Shown: piece by piece, positions 4,651 through 33,453 of the stretch
How positions within the stretch are numbered: position 1 is the stretch's first letter
Layout of the letters: the number at the start of each line of letters is the position of its first letter
Assembly (NCBI GenBank): GCA_019638775.1
Contig: JAHBTD010000003.1
Location: forward strand, 372,001 to 436,000
DNA length: 64,000 bases
Direction of reading: 5' to 3'
Source: Fimbriimonadaceae bacterium
Lineage (GTDB): Bacteria > Armatimonadota > Fimbriimonadia > Fimbriimonadales > Fimbriimonadaceae
Made by a program: the position numbers and the translations under genes
Notes under the pieces: model-generated
Told to the model about the DNA's origin: nothing
The model's input: only the letters and a program-made list of their open reading frames with translations
Databases searched by the model: none

Positions 4651-5514
4651 CTATTTCTCGATCGGAACGCCGACCGTGTTGCCCCATTCCGTCCAACTGC
4701 CATCGTAGTTGCGCACGTTCGGATAGCCAAGCAGGTACTTCAGGACAAACCAAGTGTGGCTGCTCCGTTCGCCAATACGGCAGTAAGCGACAACCTGATC
4801 ATCAGGATCAAGTCCCGCTTCACCCTCATAGATCGCCTTGAGTTCTGCAGCAGACTTGAATGTGCCGTTCTCAGTGTTGACGGCTCGCGCCCAAGGGACG
4901 CTTTTTGCGGTCGGAATATGCCCACCACGAAGCGCTCCCTCGTTGGGATAGTCCGGCATGTGCATTCGTTCACCGGTGAACTCCTCTGGGCTGCGAACGT
5001 CAACCAGCTTGCCTTTGATGTCAAGGTGATGCAAAACGTCGGCGCGGAAAGCGCGGTTACTTAAGTCGTCCCTGTTCTGAGCGTTGTAGACGGCGGACGG
5101 GTAGGTCGGTACTTCCTTGGTTAGCTCGCGCTGCTCGATGAGCCATTTCTGCCTGCCACCATCCATGATCTTGGAGTTGGTGTGCCCAAACAGCGAGAAA
5201 ACCCATAAAGCGTAGGCGGCCCACCAGTTGTTCCGGTCGCCATAGAAAACCACTGTGGTGCTGTTGGAGATACCGTTTCGGGCCATCAACGCCTCGAAGT
5301 CGGCTCGTTGAAGGTAGTCCCTGCGCAGAGGATCGTTGAGATCTCTCGTCCAGTCGATCTCAACTGCACCTGGGATGTGCCCTGACGGGTACAAAAGCGC
5401 GTCTTCGTTAGATTCCACCAGCCGAACATCGGGGTCGTTCGCATGAGCTGCGACCCATTCCGTAGAAACCAGCATATCGGGATTTGCATATCCCCGCGAG
5501 GCGATATCTGACAT
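4651..5514 (-). CDS. Tandem-rhodanese sulfurtransferase
   Basis: Thiosulfate or 3-mercaptopyruvate sulfurtransferase that carries sulfane sulfur on an active-site cysteine. At 287 aa it has two rhodanese domains. The first (about residues 15-130) is structural and lacks the Cys; the second holds the active loop [11 protein letters not shown] (about residues 244-254) and the conserved [17 protein letters not shown] is the thiosulfate-type loop rather than the CGSGVTA type of mercaptopyruvate enzymes. It is directly followed by sufE, so a role in feeding sulfur to Fe-S assembly is a reasonable inference. Confidence 0.93.
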
Positions 5515-5569
5515 GCATTGATTCTAGCGGTTAAAGCCAGCAATTTGCACAGCTCCGAGTAACGAGAGG

Positions 5570-5923
5570 CTATGCAGAGAACGCAAGATCGGGGGCTTCA
5601 CCTGGTTGCTGCCTCACTGTTTCTAACTCCCACTTAAGCTGGGTAAGAAGAACCGCTGCCCGCTCAGCCTGCCCATCTGAAAACGCAATGCTAACACGCC
5701 GTCCGACCAGGGCAACACGCTCAGCTCCGATGCTTGATGCTGCAGTAAGAAGCTCGTTAAGGAGCGATTGAGCCCGCAGGCTAATCCCCTCCTCCATCAC
5801 AAGACCTTCGAGCGCCTCAAGCCTCGTGTATGTGTCTTGAACAAACTCTTCAAGGACCCTTTCCGCCGGCTGATTCTCTCCCTTGGCCCTGTTGTATAAA
5901 CGCTCGTAGTCGACTATTTGCAC
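5570..5923 (-). CDS. Hpt-like four-helix protein lacking the phospho-acceptor histidine
   Basis: 117 aa, all predicted helix, GTG start after a GAGG ribosome-binding site. Residues 56-67 (NELLTAASSIGA) align with the HTLKGSSASIGA signature of histidine phosphotransfer domains, followed by GAERVALVGRRV and a terminal helix LLTQLKWELETV as in Hpt proteins. The phospho-accepting His position is Asn56 and the usual Lys-Gly is Leu-Thr, so it cannot relay phosphate if this alignment is right. It could be a pseudo-Hpt that binds a response regulator, or simply an unrelated helical bundle. It lies between the FAD oxidoreductase and rhodanese genes on the same strand. Confidence 0.6.
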   Translation of the reverse strand: MQIVDYERLYNRAKGENQPAERVLEEFVQDTYTRLEALEGLVMEEGISLRAQSLLNELLTAASSIGAERVALVGRRVSIAFSDGQAERAAVLLTQLKWELETVRQQPGEAPDLAFSA

Positions 5924-6030
5924 AGTTAAATTACCTCACCCAACCATTCTTCATTGTAATCATGGCTATCTGGAGCATTGGATGTGAGGCAACTCCTTGC
6001 TTTAGTAGACGCAATTATGGAGTGCTGGTA

Positions 6031-25706: not shown

Positions 25707-26414
25707 ATGCCGATCACCTGTATCACTTTCGACTGTGCCGACACCCTTGTTCGGGCAGACTGGAACTCGTCGAGATTCGCCATTGAATCGGCGCGAATGG
25801 CAGGAATGAACCCCGATGAACAGGTCGCGAAGGAGGTCTATGAGCGTCTATTGTTTGGGCGATGGAAGGAGTACGGACAGCTGAATCTGACGAAAGACCC
25901 CGATATCTGCGATGGGTTTTGGATCGAGCTGACGAGAGATTGGATGGCGAAAGTTGGCCTTCCTGCCGATAAGCTTGACCCTCTCATGGAGATTGTACGC
26001 GAGCGTCTTTACGGCCCTGATCAACAGATTTTCAGCTTGTTTGACGATACGTTAGCCTGCCTCGACAAGCTTTCAGCCAAAGGCATCCGACTCGCGATCA
26101 TCAGCAACTGGGACTACAGCCTCCACCGAGTGGTCAAAAATCTGAATATCCAGCACTATTTCGAGAAGGTTTACGCCTCGCTGGAAGTTGGGGTTGAAAA
26201 GCCCGAGTCCTACATTTTCACCAATGCGCTGCAAGAGCTTGGCGTGAAGCCGGATGAAACGCTTCATATCGGCGACAACCCTCTCGACGACGTCCAGGGA
26301 GCACGCGGGGTTGGGATGCACGCTGCGCTTATCGACCGCTCCTGCCAGTCCAGCTACAAAGGAACCCTCTCGACGCTCCACGACATCGAACAGGTCTTCA
26401 CATGGATCGACTGA
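25707..26414 (+). CDS. HAD-superfamily hydrolase
   Basis: 235-aa phosphohydrolase-type protein, subfamily with an alpha-helical cap. Motif I FDCADTLV (nucleophile Asp9 and Asp/Thr), motif II IISNWD, motif III Lys in EKPESYIF, motif IV HIGDNPLDDVQGA. In motif I, DxDxT is replaced by DCADT, still a DxxDT-like core seen in this subfamily. Probably a sugar-phosphate or nucleotide phosphatase. Overlaps queA by 13 nt, so translation is coupled with queuosine biosynthesis, though a functional link is not established. Confidence 0.85.
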   Translation: MPITCITFDCADTLVRADWNSSRFAIESARMAGMNPDEQVAKEVYERLLFGRWKEYGQLNLTKDPDICDGFWIELTRDWMAKVGLPADKLDPLMEIVRERLYGPDQQIFSLFDDTLACLDKLSAKGIRLAIISNWDYSLHRVVKNLNIQHYFEKVYASLEVGVEKPESYIFTNALQELGVKPDETLHIGDNPLDDVQGARGVGMHAALIDRSCQSSYKGTLSTLHDIEQVFTWID

Positions 26415-27415
26415 GCGATTACGACTACGATCTGCCTGTCGAGCTGATCGCCCAGGAAGCCCTCCCCGATCGCTCCGCATCCCGACTGCTTCACATCGAC
26501 AAGCGCACAGGGGCAATCAAACATCGACAATTCCGTGAAGTCGTCGATATCCTCCAGCCGGACGATCTTCTTGTTGTCAACAACACACGGGTCACGGCGC
26601 TGCGACTCTTCGGCAAGAAGCAAACCGGCGGACAGGTCGAGCTCTTGCTTTTACGCGAACACCCCGACGGAGGCTATGAAGCGCTTTCAAAGCCTGCCAA
26701 GCGATTGAAGCCCGGAGCTTTGGTCGAACTAGAAGGAGCTTTGATTGCTCGAATTGAGCACGACCTCGGAGAAGGAAAGAAGCGTATCTCCTTTCCAGAA
26801 GAGGATGACCCCGCTCACAAGCTTCGAGAGATCGGCGAAGTCCCTCTCCCGCCATACATCCACACAAAGCTCAAAGACGCAGGGCGTTATCAAACGGTTT
26901 ATGCGGAAGTGGGCGGTAGCGCCGCCGCACCGACGGCCGGTCTGCACTTTACTCCCCAGATCTTAAACGAACTCCAAGAAAAAGGGGTGCAAACCTCCGA
27001 AGTGACCCTTGATGTTGGGCTTGACACGTTCCGCCCGGTGAGTGTTGAGCGGATCGAAGATCACAAAATGCATGGCGAAAGATGCTCCATGTCGGCGCAA
27101 ACGGCCTGCGCCATTGCTCAGTGCAAGGGTAGAGTGATAGCCGTCGGTACCACTTCCGTTCGCACAATCGAAACTTTTGCTAATTCGCGAAGGGACATCA
27201 CGAACGGGGTACTGGACACAAGCATTTTCATTTATCCCGGCTATTGCTTCAAGGCGGTGGAAGGCATGTTTACAAACTTCCATATGCCCCGAACGACCAT
27301 GCTGATGATGATCAGCGCGATGGTGGGACGCGAGGCTGTGATGAATGCGTATAAGGAAGCGGTCAGCGAGCAATACCGGTTTTTATCTTTCGGCGATTCG
27401 ATGCTGATTTTGTGA
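26402..27415 (+). CDS. queA: S-adenosylmethionine:tRNA ribosyltransferase-isomerase
   Basis: Transfers and isomerises the ribosyl moiety of S-adenosylmethionine onto preQ1 in tRNA, giving epoxyqueuosine. 337 aa, normal length. Start MDRLSDYDYDLPVELIAQEALPDRSASRLL, then LLVVNNTRVTALRLFG, TVYAEVGGSAAAPTAGLHFT (family signature), TLDVGLDTFRPV and GMFTNFHMPRTTMLMM. The last motif is the strongest hallmark. tgt and queG are not in the window; queF is. Confidence 0.97.
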   Translation: MDRLSDYDYDLPVELIAQEALPDRSASRLLHIDKRTGAIKHRQFREVVDILQPDDLLVVNNTRVTALRLFGKKQTGGQVELLLLREHPDGGYEALSKPAKRLKPGALVELEGALIARIEHDLGEGKKRISFPEEDDPAHKLREIGEVPLPPYIHTKLKDAGRYQTVYAEVGGSAAAPTAGLHFTPQILNELQEKGVQTSEVTLDVGLDTFRPVSVERIEDHKMHGERCSMSAQTACAIAQCKGRVIAVGTTSVRTIETFANSRRDITNGVLDTSIFIYPGYCFKAVEGMFTNFHMPRTTMLMMISAMVGREAVMNAYKEAVSEQYRFLSFGDSMLIL

Positions 27416-27483
27416 CCATTGACGTAAGAGGCAGACGCGATGCAGGGGTATCATGACCCTTGCTGTCGCGATTGAGGTACGGG

Positions 27484-28062
27484 TTGAAAAAGAAGGAATT
27501 TGATCCACTGGAATATATCGAACAAGGGTTTTTGGACAACCGTCCCAAGAGCGGGCAACCCCCGAGAACAGTGGATACAGACCTGGACGTAGACGTCCCT
27601 CGTATCACTGAGTACCTTCGATCTGAACATAAGAACGGCGCATCGACGGCTGTTCTTGAACCACCGAAGAAGTATCGCAAAACAGCGATGCGCGCTCCAC
27701 GCCCTCGCAAAGCATCCAAGCCCGCGCTCAAGCAGAACGTCCATCCTCGACTCAAGTCGCTTTGGGAATCGATCCCCCGCAACATTGAGTTTCTTTCGGG
27801 TTTCTTCGACGATAGTGTGACGGCCAACTATTATGGCGGCGACTTCAAAGAGTCACGCGAAGAATTAATTCTCCGATTGCTCGATCCCGAGCTGAGTTTG
27901 GAAGAGAGCAGCCGTCTATTAGGAGTGTGTCCGGCAACGGTTCGTCGGTACACTAATCGAGGATGGCTATCGCATCATCGCACCAAAGGTGGCCAACGAC
28001 GTTTCCGTTTGAGCGACATCATCCGATTCGTCGAGGAGCACGGACGCTTCCCAGAGGAGTAA
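27484..28062 (+). CDS. DNA-binding protein with C-terminal MerR/excisionase-type HTH
   Basis: 192 aa. The N-terminal two thirds are basic and Pro-rich with little predicted order (KKYRKTAMRAPRPRKASKPA); the C-terminal 55 residues form a winged helix: LSLEESSRLLGVCPATVRRY, then NRGWLSHHRTKGGQRRFRLSD, as in MerR-type and Xis-type HTH domains. It probably binds specific DNA as a regulator. TTG at 27484 is preferred because GAGG lies 6 nt upstream; other TTG codons at 27460 and 27472 are possible. The GT4 gene starts 5 nt after its stop, so it may regulate that operon. Confidence 0.75.
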   Translation: MKKKEFDPLEYIEQGFLDNRPKSGQPPRTVDTDLDVDVPRITEYLRSEHKNGASTAVLEPPKKYRKTAMRAPRPRKASKPALKQNVHPRLKSLWESIPRNIEFLSGFFDDSVTANYYGGDFKESREELILRLLDPELSLEESSRLLGVCPATVRRYTNRGWLSHHRTKGGQRRFRLSDIIRFVEEHGRFPEE

Positions 28063-28066
28063 CTCT

Positions 28067-29257
28067 GTGAGTCGCGAGAAGTTGCGGATCGCGATCTTCT
28101 CCGATAGCGCTCTTCCCATCCTGAATGGCGTGAGCATCAGCATTGATGCACTCGTGCGTGGCCTGCGCAATGCCGGACATTCCGTCCACGTTTACACCGC
28201 CGCCGCTCCAGGATACAAAGATTCCGATCCAAACACCTACCGCTTTTGGGCGATGGAAACGCCTTGGACCAAGGGCTACCCGCTCGTCGGCCCGTTCGTG
28301 CACGGGATCCTTGGCGAGTTTCGAAAGAACACTTACGATGTGATCCACACGCACACACCGTTCACTGTTGGCTTCATGGGCCTCAGATGGGCGGATTCCC
28401 ACGAAATCCCCATCGTTTCGACTTACCACACGCTCTATGATCGCTACGCCCACTACATCCCCTTCTTTCCACGGCGATATGTCCGGTTCAAAATCGCGAA
28501 ACATACGAGCTTCTACTACAACTCGGTACGGCACGTGATCGTCCCCAGCGAAGCCGCCAAAAAGTGGCTCAGACGACACGCGGTCACCACCCCAATCAAA
28601 GTCATTCCTACGGGAGCCCCAGATCGGCAGATGATTGACCGGTCCGAGGCAAGGGCTCGGCTAGGCATCCATCCAGTCGAGCTAGTAATGCTCTATGTGG
28701 GGCGTATCGCAAAAGAGAAGAACCTAAGCACCCTCTTCGAGATGGCAGCTCTCGCTATGCGTGAAGAGCCCAACCTGCGGCTCATCCTGGTTGGCGATGG
28801 ACCTTACCGCGAAGAAGCACGCGAGATGGTGCGAGGCCTTGGCATCGGCGACCGCGTTCGTTTTGCGGGGTTCTTGCCGCGCGCAGAAGTGGATCAGTTC
28901 TACTCCGCCGCCGACCTCTTCGTTTTTAGCTCGATTTCGGAGACGCAGGGTTTAGTGCTGCAAGAGGCGATGACCTATGGCGTGCCCGCAGTTGCGGTTG
29001 TAGGCGGTGGGGCAAGTGAGACCATCGTGCCCGATGTGAACGGCTACACCGTGAAGAACGATCCGACCGAGTTTGCCGGAACGATCCTTAAAGTACTGAA
29101 CGACGAAAAGCTGTACGCCAAGCTCTCACAAGGGTCGCTCCAAACGGTCCGTGGGCGTGGGTCAGAAGCTATGGTCGAGTCCGTAGTTGAGGTCTATCGG
29201 CGGGCGATGCGGATACCCACTGAGAAGTCGAAGGGAGGGCGTCTTGTCCCAGTCTAA
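28067..29257 (+). CDS. GT4-family glycosyltransferase (diacylglycerol glucosyltransferase-like)
   Basis: 396 aa, GT-B fold, retaining. N-domain RIAIFSDSALPILNGVSISI, with the acceptor-side motif IHTHTPFTVGFMG, and STYHTLYDRYAHYIP typical of glycolipid synthases (1,2-diacylglycerol 3-alpha-glucosyltransferase group). C-domain LYVGRIAKEKNLSTLFEM, LVGDGPYREE, FAGFLPRAEVDQFYSAADLF and the nucleotide-sugar motif SSISETQGLVLQEAM. Soluble or peripheral membrane. GTG start. Likely makes a membrane glycolipid; sugar donor unknown. It overlaps the presenilin-like gene by 14 nt. Confidence 0.88.
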   Translation: MSREKLRIAIFSDSALPILNGVSISIDALVRGLRNAGHSVHVYTAAAPGYKDSDPNTYRFWAMETPWTKGYPLVGPFVHGILGEFRKNTYDVIHTHTPFTVGFMGLRWADSHEIPIVSTYHTLYDRYAHYIPFFPRRYVRFKIAKHTSFYYNSVRHVIVPSEAAKKWLRRHAVTTPIKVIPTGAPDRQMIDRSEARARLGIHPVELVMLYVGRIAKEKNLSTLFEMAALAMREEPNLRLILVGDGPYREEAREMVRGLGIGDRVRFAGFLPRAEVDQFYSAADLFVFSSISETQGLVLQEAMTYGVPAVAVVGGGASETIVPDVNGYTVKNDPTEFAGTILKVLNDEKLYAKLSQGSLQTVRGRGSEAMVESVVEVYRRAMRIPTEKSKGGRLVPV

Positions 29258-30287
29258 GCCGAATGCGTCTGATGCTGACGCGGTGCCCCAAGTCGACCAG
29301 ACGAATTCTCGTCCCGACCCAACGATGCCTGGCGGCATCGCGATTTTCTTTATCACTTTGGGCTCGCTCGCGCTGCTCCGCGTCGGCCTTGGATACATTA
29401 CATTCCCCGAAGCAGTCCTACTCCCAATCAATGTCCTGCTTACCGCGATCTTCATGGGCGCTCCCATCCTTGCGCTCTTTTACGCGGCAAATGCCCACTG
29501 GAAGAAGTCAACCGCCCTGCTTTTTGTGGCGGGTGGATTAGCGACACATCTCGGTTTGTTCTTCCTCGACAAGCAGCTCACCGGAGGGCACGGCCCGATA
29601 TCAGGCGCCCTCGGCGCGATCTCCCAAGCTGGCCTAAGCACGTGGTGCATTGGACTTGGGGCGTTATTGACGACGATGCTCAAAGATCGGAATCTCCTGA
29701 TTCCGGTCAGCATATTCCTTGCGGCTTACGACGCTTTCTTGGTCCTGACCCCGGTCGGCTTTACCCAGGTCATCTTACAGAAGATGCCCAACGCCCTTCC
29801 GTCCGTGGCGATGCAAATCCCAGCTGCCATCGCAAACACCTCGGCACAGCCGCCCGGCGGGAAAGCAGCGATAGGCGGCTACGTCGGACCTGCTGACCTT
29901 GTGTTCATGGGGATGTTCTTCGTCGCGCTGTTCCGGTTCAAGATGAAGACAAGGCTCACCCTAACGGTGATGATTCCTGTCCTGGTCGCATACATGGGCC
30001 TTGTCGGCTTGACCAGTATGCCTTTGCCCGCGATGGTGCCGATAGGCTTGGTCATCCTCATCGTGAACTGGAGTGAAATCAGACTAACGAAGCAGGAATG
30101 GATATCCACTGCCGCCTTAACCCTACTATGTGGTTTGCTTCTCGGCTGGTCGGCTACTCAGCCAAAGCCAAAGCCGCTAATTGAGATTTTGCCTGAGGTC
30201 CCCGGCCAAGAAGCTGAAGGATCGGTAAGCTCGCCCGAGACAACTTCGCCCAATCAACCCCCGTCTGGACCCCCGAACGCTCCATAA
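29244..30287 (+). CDS. Presenilin-like (GxGD-type) intramembrane aspartyl protease candidate
   Basis: 347 aa, about nine membrane helices and a Pro/Ser/Glu-rich tail. Helix with AAYDAFLVLTPVG (Asp163) resembles presenilin TM6 (YDLVAVLCPKG in human PS1, from memory); after a 50-residue loop comes GGYVGPADLVFMGMFFVALF (Asp218), matching TM7 GLGDFIFYSVL; two helices later MPLPAMVPIGLVIL matches the PAL motif of TM9. Order, spacing and hydrophobic context fit peptidase A22. The third residue of GxGD is Ala instead of Gly (GPAD). One extra helix follows the PAL segment. TTG start at 29244 with GGGAGGG upstream, overlapping the GT4 stop. Proteolysis is inferred, not shown; substrate unknown. Confidence 0.72.
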   Translation: MSQSKPNASDADAVPQVDQTNSRPDPTMPGGIAIFFITLGSLALLRVGLGYITFPEAVLLPINVLLTAIFMGAPILALFYAANAHWKKSTALLFVAGGLATHLGLFFLDKQLTGGHGPISGALGAISQAGLSTWCIGLGALLTTMLKDRNLLIPVSIFLAAYDAFLVLTPVGFTQVILQKMPNALPSVAMQIPAAIANTSAQPPGGKAAIGGYVGPADLVFMGMFFVALFRFKMKTRLTLTVMIPVLVAYMGLVGLTSMPLPAMVPIGLVILIVNWSEIRLTKQEWISTAALTLLCGLLLGWSATQPKPKPLIEILPEVPGQEAEGSVSSPETTSPNQPPSGPPNAP

Positions 30288-31310: not shown

Positions 31311-31718
31311 ATGTCCGAACTGCAGCTCGATCAAATCCGGCACGCGCTCACCGTTGCGCGGCAGCTTGGGTGTACAGAGGTTGAACTGGAGGCTGGTGAC
31401 CTGGAGTTTAGCGCTCGGCTAAGCGCAAAGAGAGCGAATCCAGCAGTAACTTCACCCGATCCGGCTCGTGATGTGATGACCTCCCCCGAATCGCCCTTCA
31501 GGGAGATTACTGCACCCTGCGTCGGTTACTATCAGGATGGAAAGACCCCCCTGAAAGCAGGCGATGAGATCAAAGTTGGCGATTTGGTGGGTGTGGTTTC
31601 GGCTCTCGGGTTAGGGAACGACGTGGAGTCTTCGTTCTCGGGAACGATCGAAGAGGTGTTAGTCAAGGATGGCGATCCGGTCGAATACGGGCAAGCGCTT
31701 GCCCGTGTGAGGAGCTAA
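31311..31718 (+). CDS. BCCP-like (AccB-type) protein lacking the biotinyl lysine
   Basis: 135 aa with the two-part AccB architecture: an N-terminal helix and sheet (QIRHALTVARQLGCTEVELE), a Pro/Ser-rich linker, and a C-terminal biotinyl-lipoyl fold (ITAPCVGYYQDGKTPLKAGD ... GTIEEVLVKDGDPVEYGQAL). The site that should read EAMKM reads SALGL (residues 97-101), so Gly100 replaces the Lys that carries biotin. The codons are clear (TCG GCT CTC GGG TTA). It cannot be a carboxyl carrier. Plant BADC proteins share this trait and inhibit acetyl-CoA carboxylase; the location one gene upstream of accC supports a similar regulatory or structural role, by inference. Confidence 0.85.
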   Translation: MSELQLDQIRHALTVARQLGCTEVELEAGDLEFSARLSAKRANPAVTSPDPARDVMTSPESPFREITAPCVGYYQDGKTPLKAGDEIKVGDLVGVVSALGLGNDVESSFSGTIEEVLVKDGDPVEYGQALARVRS

Positions 31719-31720
31719 CA

Positions 31721-32089
31721 ATGAAAACCAAACGTGGATTTGGCCTGGTTGAAATTTTGGTTGTGATCGGGATTCTCGCACTCTTGGCGGGTGCGATGTA
31801 CATGGGCTTTGGCAATAACGGCGGAAGCACACGCGCCGATGGAAAGGGCAACACCATCATCGGCAAGTCGATGTATAAGGCAAAAGACGAGGTGTGCAGA
31901 AACAATCTCCGCCAATTGCGCCTTGGAATCGAAGCGCGGCACACGACTGACGATATGTATCCGGTGAAGCTCGAAGAGCTTCGCATAGGCAACGATTTCT
32001 ATAGTTGTGCAGTCGGGCAGGAGCCGTACGAATACGACCCAGAGACGGGCGAGGTGAAGTGTCCGCATGCCGGGCATGAGAAGTATTGA
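31721..32089 (+). CDS. Prepilin-like protein (type IV pilin/type II pseudopilin)
   Basis: 122 aa. N-terminal class III signal: KRGFGLVEILVVIGILALLA, with a basic leader, Gly-Phe cleavage site and Glu5 of the mature protein, followed by a single hydrophobic helix. The C-terminal globular part has a Cys pair (about residues 47 and 102-113 region, including CPHAGHEKY). Such short pseudopilins are frequent in Armatimonadota and Planctomycetes. It sits 2 nt after the BCCP-like gene and overlaps accC by one base (TGATG), so a membrane pilin-like protein is embedded in a fatty acid synthesis operon. Confidence 0.88.
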   Translation: MKTKRGFGLVEILVVIGILALLAGAMYMGFGNNGGSTRADGKGNTIIGKSMYKAKDEVCRNNLRQLRLGIEARHTTDDMYPVKLEELRIGNDFYSCAVGQEPYEYDPETGEVKCPHAGHEKY

Positions 32090-33453
32090 TGTTTAAGACA
32101 GTCCTCATCGCAAACCGTGGCGAAATCGCATGCCGCGTCATCCGTGCATGCCGCGAACTCGGCATCAATAGCGTCGCGATCTATTCGCAGGCGGACAGGG
32201 ATAGCCTGCATGTGAAACTCGCCGACCAGGCGATTTGCGTTGGGCATGGCACGAACACCGATTCGTATCTGAACTTAGCCAACGTCTTGATGGCGGCGCG
32301 CATCTCGGAAGCAGATGCCGTTCACCCAGGCTACGGTTACTTCAGCGAGCGCTCTCAGTTTGCCGAGGCTCTCGGACAGATTGGAGTGACCTTCATCGGT
32401 CCACCCCCCGCAGCAATCGAGGGCATGGGCGATAAAGCCAAGGCCAAGCAAGCGGCAATTGCTTCGAACTGCCCAGTCGTTCCTGGCTCCGATGGCCCCG
32501 TTGCCACCGATCAAGATGCCCTCAAAGTCGCCGACCAAATCGGCTATCCGGTTCTGCTCAAGGCTGTAGCTGGCGGAGGGGGCCGCGGCATCCGCCGTGT
32601 CGATAGCCCCGAAGAGCTTGCCGGGGCTTGGCGCACGGCCCAGGCCGAAGCAGCCGCTAGCTTTGGCAGCGACGAAATGCTTGTTGAGAAGTGCGTCCTG
32701 CGTCCAAGGCACGTCGAGATTCAGCTAATCGGTGACCAGCACGGGAATCTGGTCTACCTCGGCGAGCGCGAATGCTCTGTCCAAAACCTTCGACACCAGA
32801 AGATCGTCGAAGAAGCGCCCTACGCTCAGCTCCCTGCCGAAGTGCGAAAATCGATGGGCGAAGCTGCGGTCCGGGTGGCCTGGAGCGTGGGCTATCAAAA
32901 CGCGGGGACGGTCGAATTCCTCGTCGATGACGACTTCAACTACTATTTCTTGGAGATGAATACCCGACTGCAGGTGGAGCACCCAGTAACCGAGGAGATC
33001 ACCGGAATCGACTTGGTGCATACGATGCTCAAGGTCGCGGCAGGGGACAAGCTTCCGTTCAAACAGGAAGACATTCGGCTCAGTGGACACAGTATCGAGG
33101 CCCGAGTCACCGCCCAAGACCCCGACAAGGATTTTGCCCCCAGCACCGGAGCCATTACGATGTGGCGAGCGCCGATGGGACGTGGAGTCCGGATGGAGAG
33201 CCATTGTTACGCGGGGTTCTGCGTCAGTCCATATTACGACCCCCTTCTCGCAAAGCTCATCTGTACCGGGAAGGACAGAACCGACGCCGTCAAGAAGCTT
33301 CAAGCCGCTCTTCACGAGTTCCACGTCGAAGGCGTCATGACGAATATCCCGTTCTTGCGCAGGCTCGTCGCTCATCCCGACTACGTCGCGGGCAACTTCG
33401 CAACCGACTTTGTACCGCGATTCCTCGCGGAGGAAACCGCCGGTGCCCGTTAA
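32089..33453 (+). CDS. accC: Acetyl-CoA carboxylase, biotin carboxylase subunit
   Basis: ATP-dependent carboxylation of the biotin on BCCP, first half of acetyl-CoA carboxylase and first step of fatty acid synthesis. 454 aa. N-domain VLIANRGEIACRVIRACREL, HPGYGYFSER, ATP-grasp glycine loop KAVAGGGGRGIR, HVEIQLIGDQHGN, ECSVQNLRHQKIVEEAP, and the catalytic EMNTRLQVEHPVTEEITGID. Complete. The ATG overlaps the pilin stop. The neighbouring BCCP-like protein cannot carry biotin, so a true accB must be elsewhere in the genome. Confidence 0.97.
   Translation: MFKTVLIANRGEIACRVIRACRELGINSVAIYSQADRDSLHVKLADQAICVGHGTNTDSYLNLANVLMAARISEADAVHPGYGYFSERSQFAEALGQIGVTFIGPPPAAIEGMGDKAKAKQAAIASNCPVVPGSDGPVATDQDALKVADQIGYPVLLKAVAGGGGRGIRRVDSPEELAGAWRTAQAEAAASFGSDEMLVEKCVLRPRHVEIQLIGDQHGNLVYLGERECSVQNLRHQKIVEEAPYAQLPAEVRKSMGEAAVRVAWSVGYQNAGTVEFLVDDDFNYYFLEMNTRLQVEHPVTEEITGIDLVHTMLKVAAGDKLPFKQEDIRLSGHSIEARVTAQDPDKDFAPSTGAITMWRAPMGRGVRMESHCYAGFCVSPYYDPLLAKLICTGKDRTDAVKKLQAALHEFHVEGVMTNIPFLRRLVAHPDYVAGNFATDFVPRFLAEETAGAR

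Follow-up and report, generated by a model that had tools for sequence, protein, structure and literature searches.

A phylum-wide family of Armatimonadota membrane proteins as candidate SPP-like A22 intramembrane proteases

To our knowledge, A22 proteases have been described mainly from archaea and eukaryotes, and Raut et al. in 2021 reportedly dealt with the archaeal roots of the presenilin/SPP class. The described members that stand closest to the locus considered here are SPP/SPPL2A (MEROPS A22B; PDB 9k92/9k93), presenilin-1 of gamma-secretase (A22A) and the archaeal PSH MCMJR1 (PF06550; PDB 4HYC). One substitution in presenilin-1, G384A, is a disease mutation. Replacement of Gly by Ala at the third position of the GxGD motif slows PSH as well as presenilin (PMC2947513). 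The active sites of SPP and the SPPL proteases have the SPP orientation, in which type II segments are cut, and presenilin has the reverse orientation (PMC7768045).

The window, a stretch of 64,000 nucleotides from a Fimbriimonadaceae bacterium, contains a gene that the original prediction had proposed to encode a bacterial presenilin-like intramembrane protease. Profiles, motif order and predicted structure support this proposal, and we consider it probable that the product is a diaspartyl intramembrane protease, a divergent A22-type member from bacteria that is SPP-like in kind and would cut N-in TM segments. The A22 assignment is based on sequence, conservation, profile similarity and resemblance of the predicted fold, from which we infer catalysis, orientation in vivo and substrates. 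The gene and its motifs are as follows.

29244..30287, + strand: gene for an A22-like polytopic membrane protein of 347 aa, with a TTG start; homologue in 269 of 291 genomes of the phylum
29727..29732, + strand: YD motif, with the first catalytic Asp candidate, D163 (D in 94 of 94 sequences)
29886..29897, + strand: GPAD motif (residues 215-218), the GxGD equivalent, with the second catalytic Asp candidate, D218 (G215 and D218 in 94 of 94)
30024..30041, + strand: LPAMVP (residues 261-266), the PAL-motif equivalent at the start of TM8 (P262 in 89 of 94)

The TTG start at 29244 lies within the last 14 bases of the glycosyltransferase gene before it (end at 29257), and a Shine-Dalgarno-like sequence, AAGGGAGGG, is found just 5' of it. 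In the matching frame, the reverse strand of 29244-30287 contains many stops. Translation of the forward strand gave all three of the predicted segments, YDAFLVLTPVG (D163), VGPADLVF (D218) and PLPAMVPIG (P262), with the residue numbering originally proposed, and confirmed a membrane protein with YD163, GPAD218 and PAM264 in A22 order.

The protein resembles SPP/SPPL2A around its Asp residues (YDxFxVxxxP and GxGDxxxxxxxxAxxxRF), in the VP of the loop, in the PAL segment, in the predicted location of the Asp loop outside and in a Foldseek match (9k93), with an identity of approximately 20-28% over the aligned core. It differs from them in having GPAD instead of GxGD, no PA domain, four helices rather than five before the first Asp, and an additional C-terminal helix. 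With presenilin-1 it shares YDxxxVxxPxGP and LPAL(V)P, and presenilin-1 in substrate- or inhibitor-bound states gave the best Foldseek matches; Presenilin was also the sole Pfam family matched in runs with the full-length family consensus. However, the match falls below the Pfam cut-off, the Asp-Asp loop is short (55 residues) and lacks the long cytosolic loop of presenilin-1, and the predicted orientation is opposite. Archaeal PSH is likewise a single prokaryotic protein, with D162/D220 as compared to D163/D218 here, and VVVP (P at D+29) as compared to QIP (P at D+30). In contrast to these similarities, PSH alone aligns at background, and a profile search found PF06550 in none of 151 Armatimonadota genomes, indicating that no recognisable archaeal-type PSH occurs alongside the family there.

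Conservation of the motifs in homologues, which had been suggested as a check, was found across 94 diverse members. D163, D218, G215, A217, P262 and P266 were invariant in 28 sequences, and G139, P154, D163, G215, D218, N275 and E285 were strictly invariant in 79 and in 94 diverse sequences. The YD motif as first described holds for its Asp, present in every member, but its Tyr occurs in only 6 of 94, with F, V, I or L being commoner. Similarly, the PAL equivalent retains P262 and its place at the start of TM8, but the window copy reads PAM, a conservative variant of the PAL that is found in 71 of 94 members.

Position 217 is occupied by Ala in 70 and by Gly in 24 of the 94 sequences, and by no other residue. 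All 61 Fimbriimonadia sequences have GxAD (59 GPAD, 1 GAAD and 1 GDAD), while among the 33 members from other classes 24 have strict GxGD, as GPGD, GLGD, GVGD, GFGD or GIGD; outside Fimbriimonadia, either residue can stand at position 217. One distant member (L127) reads GLGDFIF, which is identical to PSEN1 in that stretch. The Ala of GPAD had been called atypical, and strict GxGD is indeed absent from the window protein, but Ala is fixed only in Fimbriimonadia and most members of other classes have GxGD. Thus, Ala is the fixed state of one class, and we infer that it is also the derived state. Judged by sequence, the Fimbriimonadia GxAD is the equivalent of PSH G219A and PS1 G384A, and the naturally occurring division between GxGD and GxAD members allows the role of the Gly before the catalytic Asp to be tested directly.

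Fixation of GxAD in 61 of 61 Fimbriimonadia, together with the slowing of PSH by the Gly-to-Ala exchange (PMC2947513), would also fit a true A22 homologue in which GPAD marks catalytic loss, protease activity is lost or weak and the Asp pair serves another membrane role. We regard this as unlikely: both Asp residues are invariant in all 94 members, including every one with GxAD, G and A are both accepted at position 217 in other classes, and in PSH the G219A substitution slowed cleavage considerably without abolishing it (PMC2947513).

Similarity to characterised A22 members was assessed with a reference set consisting of PSH (4HYC), SPPL2A (9K92) and the PSEN1 core, all checked against PDB chains, and an SPP fragment, checked only indirectly through its match to SPPL2A. 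An A22-only HMM built from PSH, PSEN1, SPP and SPPL2A alone showed significant similarity, with the window protein ranking first (E=5e-4; next 0.16) among the 2005 ORFs of a 1.26 Mb portion of the genome it comes from, which served as the control. When the same HMM was run on 2476 ORFs, ranks 1-40 were all family members (best E 6.9e-6; window protein 6e-4). The first rank among 2005 ORFs and the invariance of D163, D218 and G215 in 94 sequences place the motifs beyond chance. In hhalign, the family profile scored 37.3 against the four-sequence A22 profile, as compared to a maximum of 21.2 for 200 column-shuffles and 17.1 for the reversed profile, and the alignment paired YD with YD, VP with VP and GPAD with GxGD. 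Against a two-sequence PSEN1+SPP profile, the score was 38.7 (P 1.6e-5) over 99 columns across the three motifs. Single sequences scored 29.4 (SPP), 25.2 (PSEN1), 21.7 (SPPL2A) and 19.5 (PSH), and the best of 84 unrelated polytopic ORFs reached 19.6; the match to PSH alone is therefore not significant. The VP element of the Asp-Asp loop, which the original prediction had not used, was also aligned: I192-P193 here, with P193 in 92 of 94 members, corresponds to the VP of PSH (P191) and SPPL2A (P390).

Among the curated Pfam models, the family consensus matched Presenilin best, at the YD region (E 0.0035-0.08), with 16.6 bits against PF01080, for which the cut-off is 34.3. An HMM match to an unrelated transporter family, which would have spoken against the prediction, did not appear. 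No family member, including the window protein, exceeded any cut-off in the Pfam/NCBIfam scans; PF04258 (Peptidase_A22B) was not matched in the Pfam scans, PF01080 and PF06550 gave no match in the window's own genome, and a PDB sequence search with the window protein gave no significant match.

An AF2 model made with 94 sequences (pLDDT 94.9, pTM 0.91, as compared to 86.6 and 0.82 for an earlier model) has nine TM helices, of which the following elements concern us here.

29331..29672, + strand: N-terminal four TM helices (30-49, 56-82, 88-112, 117-143), AF2 model
29688..29747, + strand: TM5 (149-168), presenilin TM6 equivalent, AF2 model and hhalign register with PSH/PSEN1
29811..29885, + strand: beta hairpin (190-198, 205-214) in the Asp-Asp loop, containing I192-P193, AF2 models
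29889..29936, + strand: short TM6 (216-231), presenilin TM7 equivalent, AF2 model
29949..30014, + strand: TM7 (236-257), presenilin TM8 equivalent, AF2 model
30090..30158, + strand: TM9 (283-305), extra C-terminal helix after the PAL helix, AF2 model

The YD motif with D163 lies near the end of the fifth helix, and D218 lies at the start of the short sixth, where the window protein has GPAD in place of GxGD with the D and the first G invariant. The PAL equivalent, LPAM-VPIG, is at the start of a C-terminal TM helix, TM8, which begins at residue 264, and the invariant N275 and E285 are at the TM8-TM9 turn. The A22 nine-TM fold has its Asp residues on the sixth and seventh helices, and relative to presenilin the model lacks one helix ahead of the first Asp and has an additional one behind the PAL helix. 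Circular permutation was considered as the source of this shift and rejected, because the added helix at the C-terminus would cross the membrane in the direction opposite to that of presenilin TM1 when both are oriented by the Asp loop. A C-terminal tail of approximately 40 residues (30159-30284, + strand) is Pro/Ser-rich, modelled with low confidence and predicted to be outside, and is present in many but not all members.

In Foldseek searches against the PDB, the first nine matches of model 1 were PSEN1 in ligand- or substrate-bound gamma-secretase, and the top matches of model 2 were PSEN1 (8k8e, prob 0.98) and SPPL2A (9k93, prob 0.89). Every match with prob > 0.5 was PSEN1 or SPPL2A, and among the matches listed no non-A22 structure exceeded prob 0.2. 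The comparison with archaeal PSH that had been proposed was borne out in part, in that the only credible matches were presenilin and SPPL2a, but PSH itself was absent among the matches listed. The best matches had E 0.04-0.1, TM-score 0.3-0.4 and rmsd 15-21 Å; given these modest E-values and low TM-scores, the resemblance is clear at the local level but not established for superposition of the whole fold, and the global arrangement of helices may differ.

Upstream of the family gene, the window contains three genes of a block that is kept, with the membrane protein gene, across Fimbriimonadia.

26402..27415, + strand: queA, with which the conserved block opens (40 of the 52 loci)
27460..28062, + strand: gene for a DNA-binding protein of HTH_17/MerR type, apparently in one operon with the family gene and upstream of it (41 of the 52 loci)
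28067..29257, + strand: GT4 glycosyltransferase, upstream and overlapping (adjacent to the family gene at 43 of the 52 related loci)

The nearest NCBIfam model for the GT4 protein was alpha-monoglucosyldiacylglycerol synthase, below cut-off. The glycosyltransferase and HTH context described in the original prediction is thus present here, but its conservation does not extend beyond the lineage of the window. In ten distant genomes, the neighbours include LeuRS (three), Dus (two), a trypsin-PDZ (HtrA-like) protease, PBP and a PP2C phosphatase. Because the queA-HTH-GT4 block is lineage-specific and the neighbours in other classes are housekeeping genes, a substrate clue from neighbours was rejected; the varied neighbours fit a housekeeping role and not a dedicated substrate pair.

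The conserved GT4 linkage in this lineage might point instead to an unrelated membrane protein, such as a transporter or a glycolipid glycosyltransferase partner, with A22 resemblance by convergence or chance. The low TM-scores and large rmsd to PSEN1, the different helix count before the first Asp and the family-specific invariance of N275 and E285 are consistent with this idea. It appears improbable to us, since the profile scores exceed those of shuffled, reversed and real polytopic controls, the three motifs and the VP site are in register, the Foldseek matches listed contain no non-A22 structure above the low probability given above, and in other classes the family gene adjoins LeuRS, Dus, HtrA-like or PBP genes, not GT.

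The distribution of charges was used to predict membrane orientation. Over 94 sequences, mean K+R was 1.36, 1.93, 2.98 and 3.15 in loops 2, 4, 6 and 8, and 0.38, 0.41 and 0.35 in loops 1, 3 and 7; the Asp-Asp loop, with K+R of 3.0 over 42 residues, has a low density. This distribution places the N-terminus inside and the Asp loop outside, and so predicts an SPP-like rather than a presenilin-like orientation, with the exoplasmic catalytic loop of SPP/SPPL (A22B). The N-terminus is predicted inside, unlike that of SPP, because there is one helix fewer before the first Asp. A presenilin-like protease in the presenilin orientation, having a cytosolic Asp loop and type I substrates, would agree with the best single Foldseek and Pfam matches, both of which are presenilin, but we think it very unlikely in view of the positive-inside pattern across the 94 sequences. 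The other kind of membrane Asp protease with GxGD, type IV prepilin peptidase (A24), can be set aside with near certainty in spite of the GxGD-like motif and a pilin-like gene 1.4 kb away, as no A24 Pfam/NCBIfam match was found in any member scanned and no A24 structure was among the Foldseek matches listed.

In the SPP-like A22 protease that we favour, D163, carried on one helix, and D218, where the following helix begins, would activate water and cleave a peptide bond within the membrane. The hairpin of the Asp-Asp loop could pair with unwound substrate, as in substrate-bound presenilin, and LPAMVP would sit where the PAL motif flanks the active site. Given the SPP-like orientation, the expected substrates would be TM segments with N-in/C-out topology, such as leftover signal peptides.

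A protein search found a homologue in 41 of 41 relatives, in two of which it is split in two pieces, and searches with alignments as queries found one in 265 and then 269 of 291 genomes of the phylum. The family gene is present in 186 of 194 good-quality Armatimonadota genomes, nearly always as a single copy, and it is missing from two genomes of reduced size (1.5 Mb) in the taxonomic family to which the window genome belongs. A contig scan with two restrictive peptide patterns yielded 51 loci, and every named record was from Armatimonadota (Fimbriimonadaceae, Chthonomonas and others). A plasmid collection searched with the window protein and an SPP fragment gave no relevant match. Literature searches, covering freely readable papers, found no report of the Armatimonadota family, and we provisionally regard it as previously undescribed and missed by curated models. 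On whether it is a bacterial branch of the presenilin/SPP class that is of long standing and spans the phylum, of SPP type in Armatimonadota, in which one class fixed the Gly-to-Ala change equivalent to PS1 G384A and kept both Asp residues, our judgement is evenly balanced. If true, the occurrence of such a family in almost all members of a bacterial phylum would bring bacteria into the A22 class, provide small single-chain A22 models and inform the question of how SPP and presenilin originated.

SppA (Peptidase_S49), an unrelated serine protease, is a possible functional counterpart, acting in signal-peptide degradation in bacteria. It was undetected in the window genome and in 38 of 41 near relatives, a count that includes the window genome; the remaining three had marginal S49 matches. 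If the proposed activity is true, the family would offer an extra route for signal-peptide clearance in a lineage mostly without SppA. However, a clean replacement of SppA is weakened as an explanation, since SppA coexists with the family in most other Armatimonadota classes and M50 (RseP-type) proteases are present in 41 of 41 near relatives.

Several further features of the loci were observed. In one genome of another class (G061), the family gene is tandemly duplicated (L178:4138-5088 and 5113-6018). In the window, a pilin/pseudopilin-like ORF (31721-32089, + strand; Pfam N_methyl, E 4.4e-7) lies 1.4 kb from the family gene, between the genes for biotin carboxyl carrier (31311-31718) and biotin carboxylase (32086-33453). 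At locus L180 (3401-4429, 4507-5535), a trypsin-PDZ (HtrA/DegP-like) gene directly follows the family gene in the same orientation, and the two might constitute a possible pair of shedding and intramembrane proteases.
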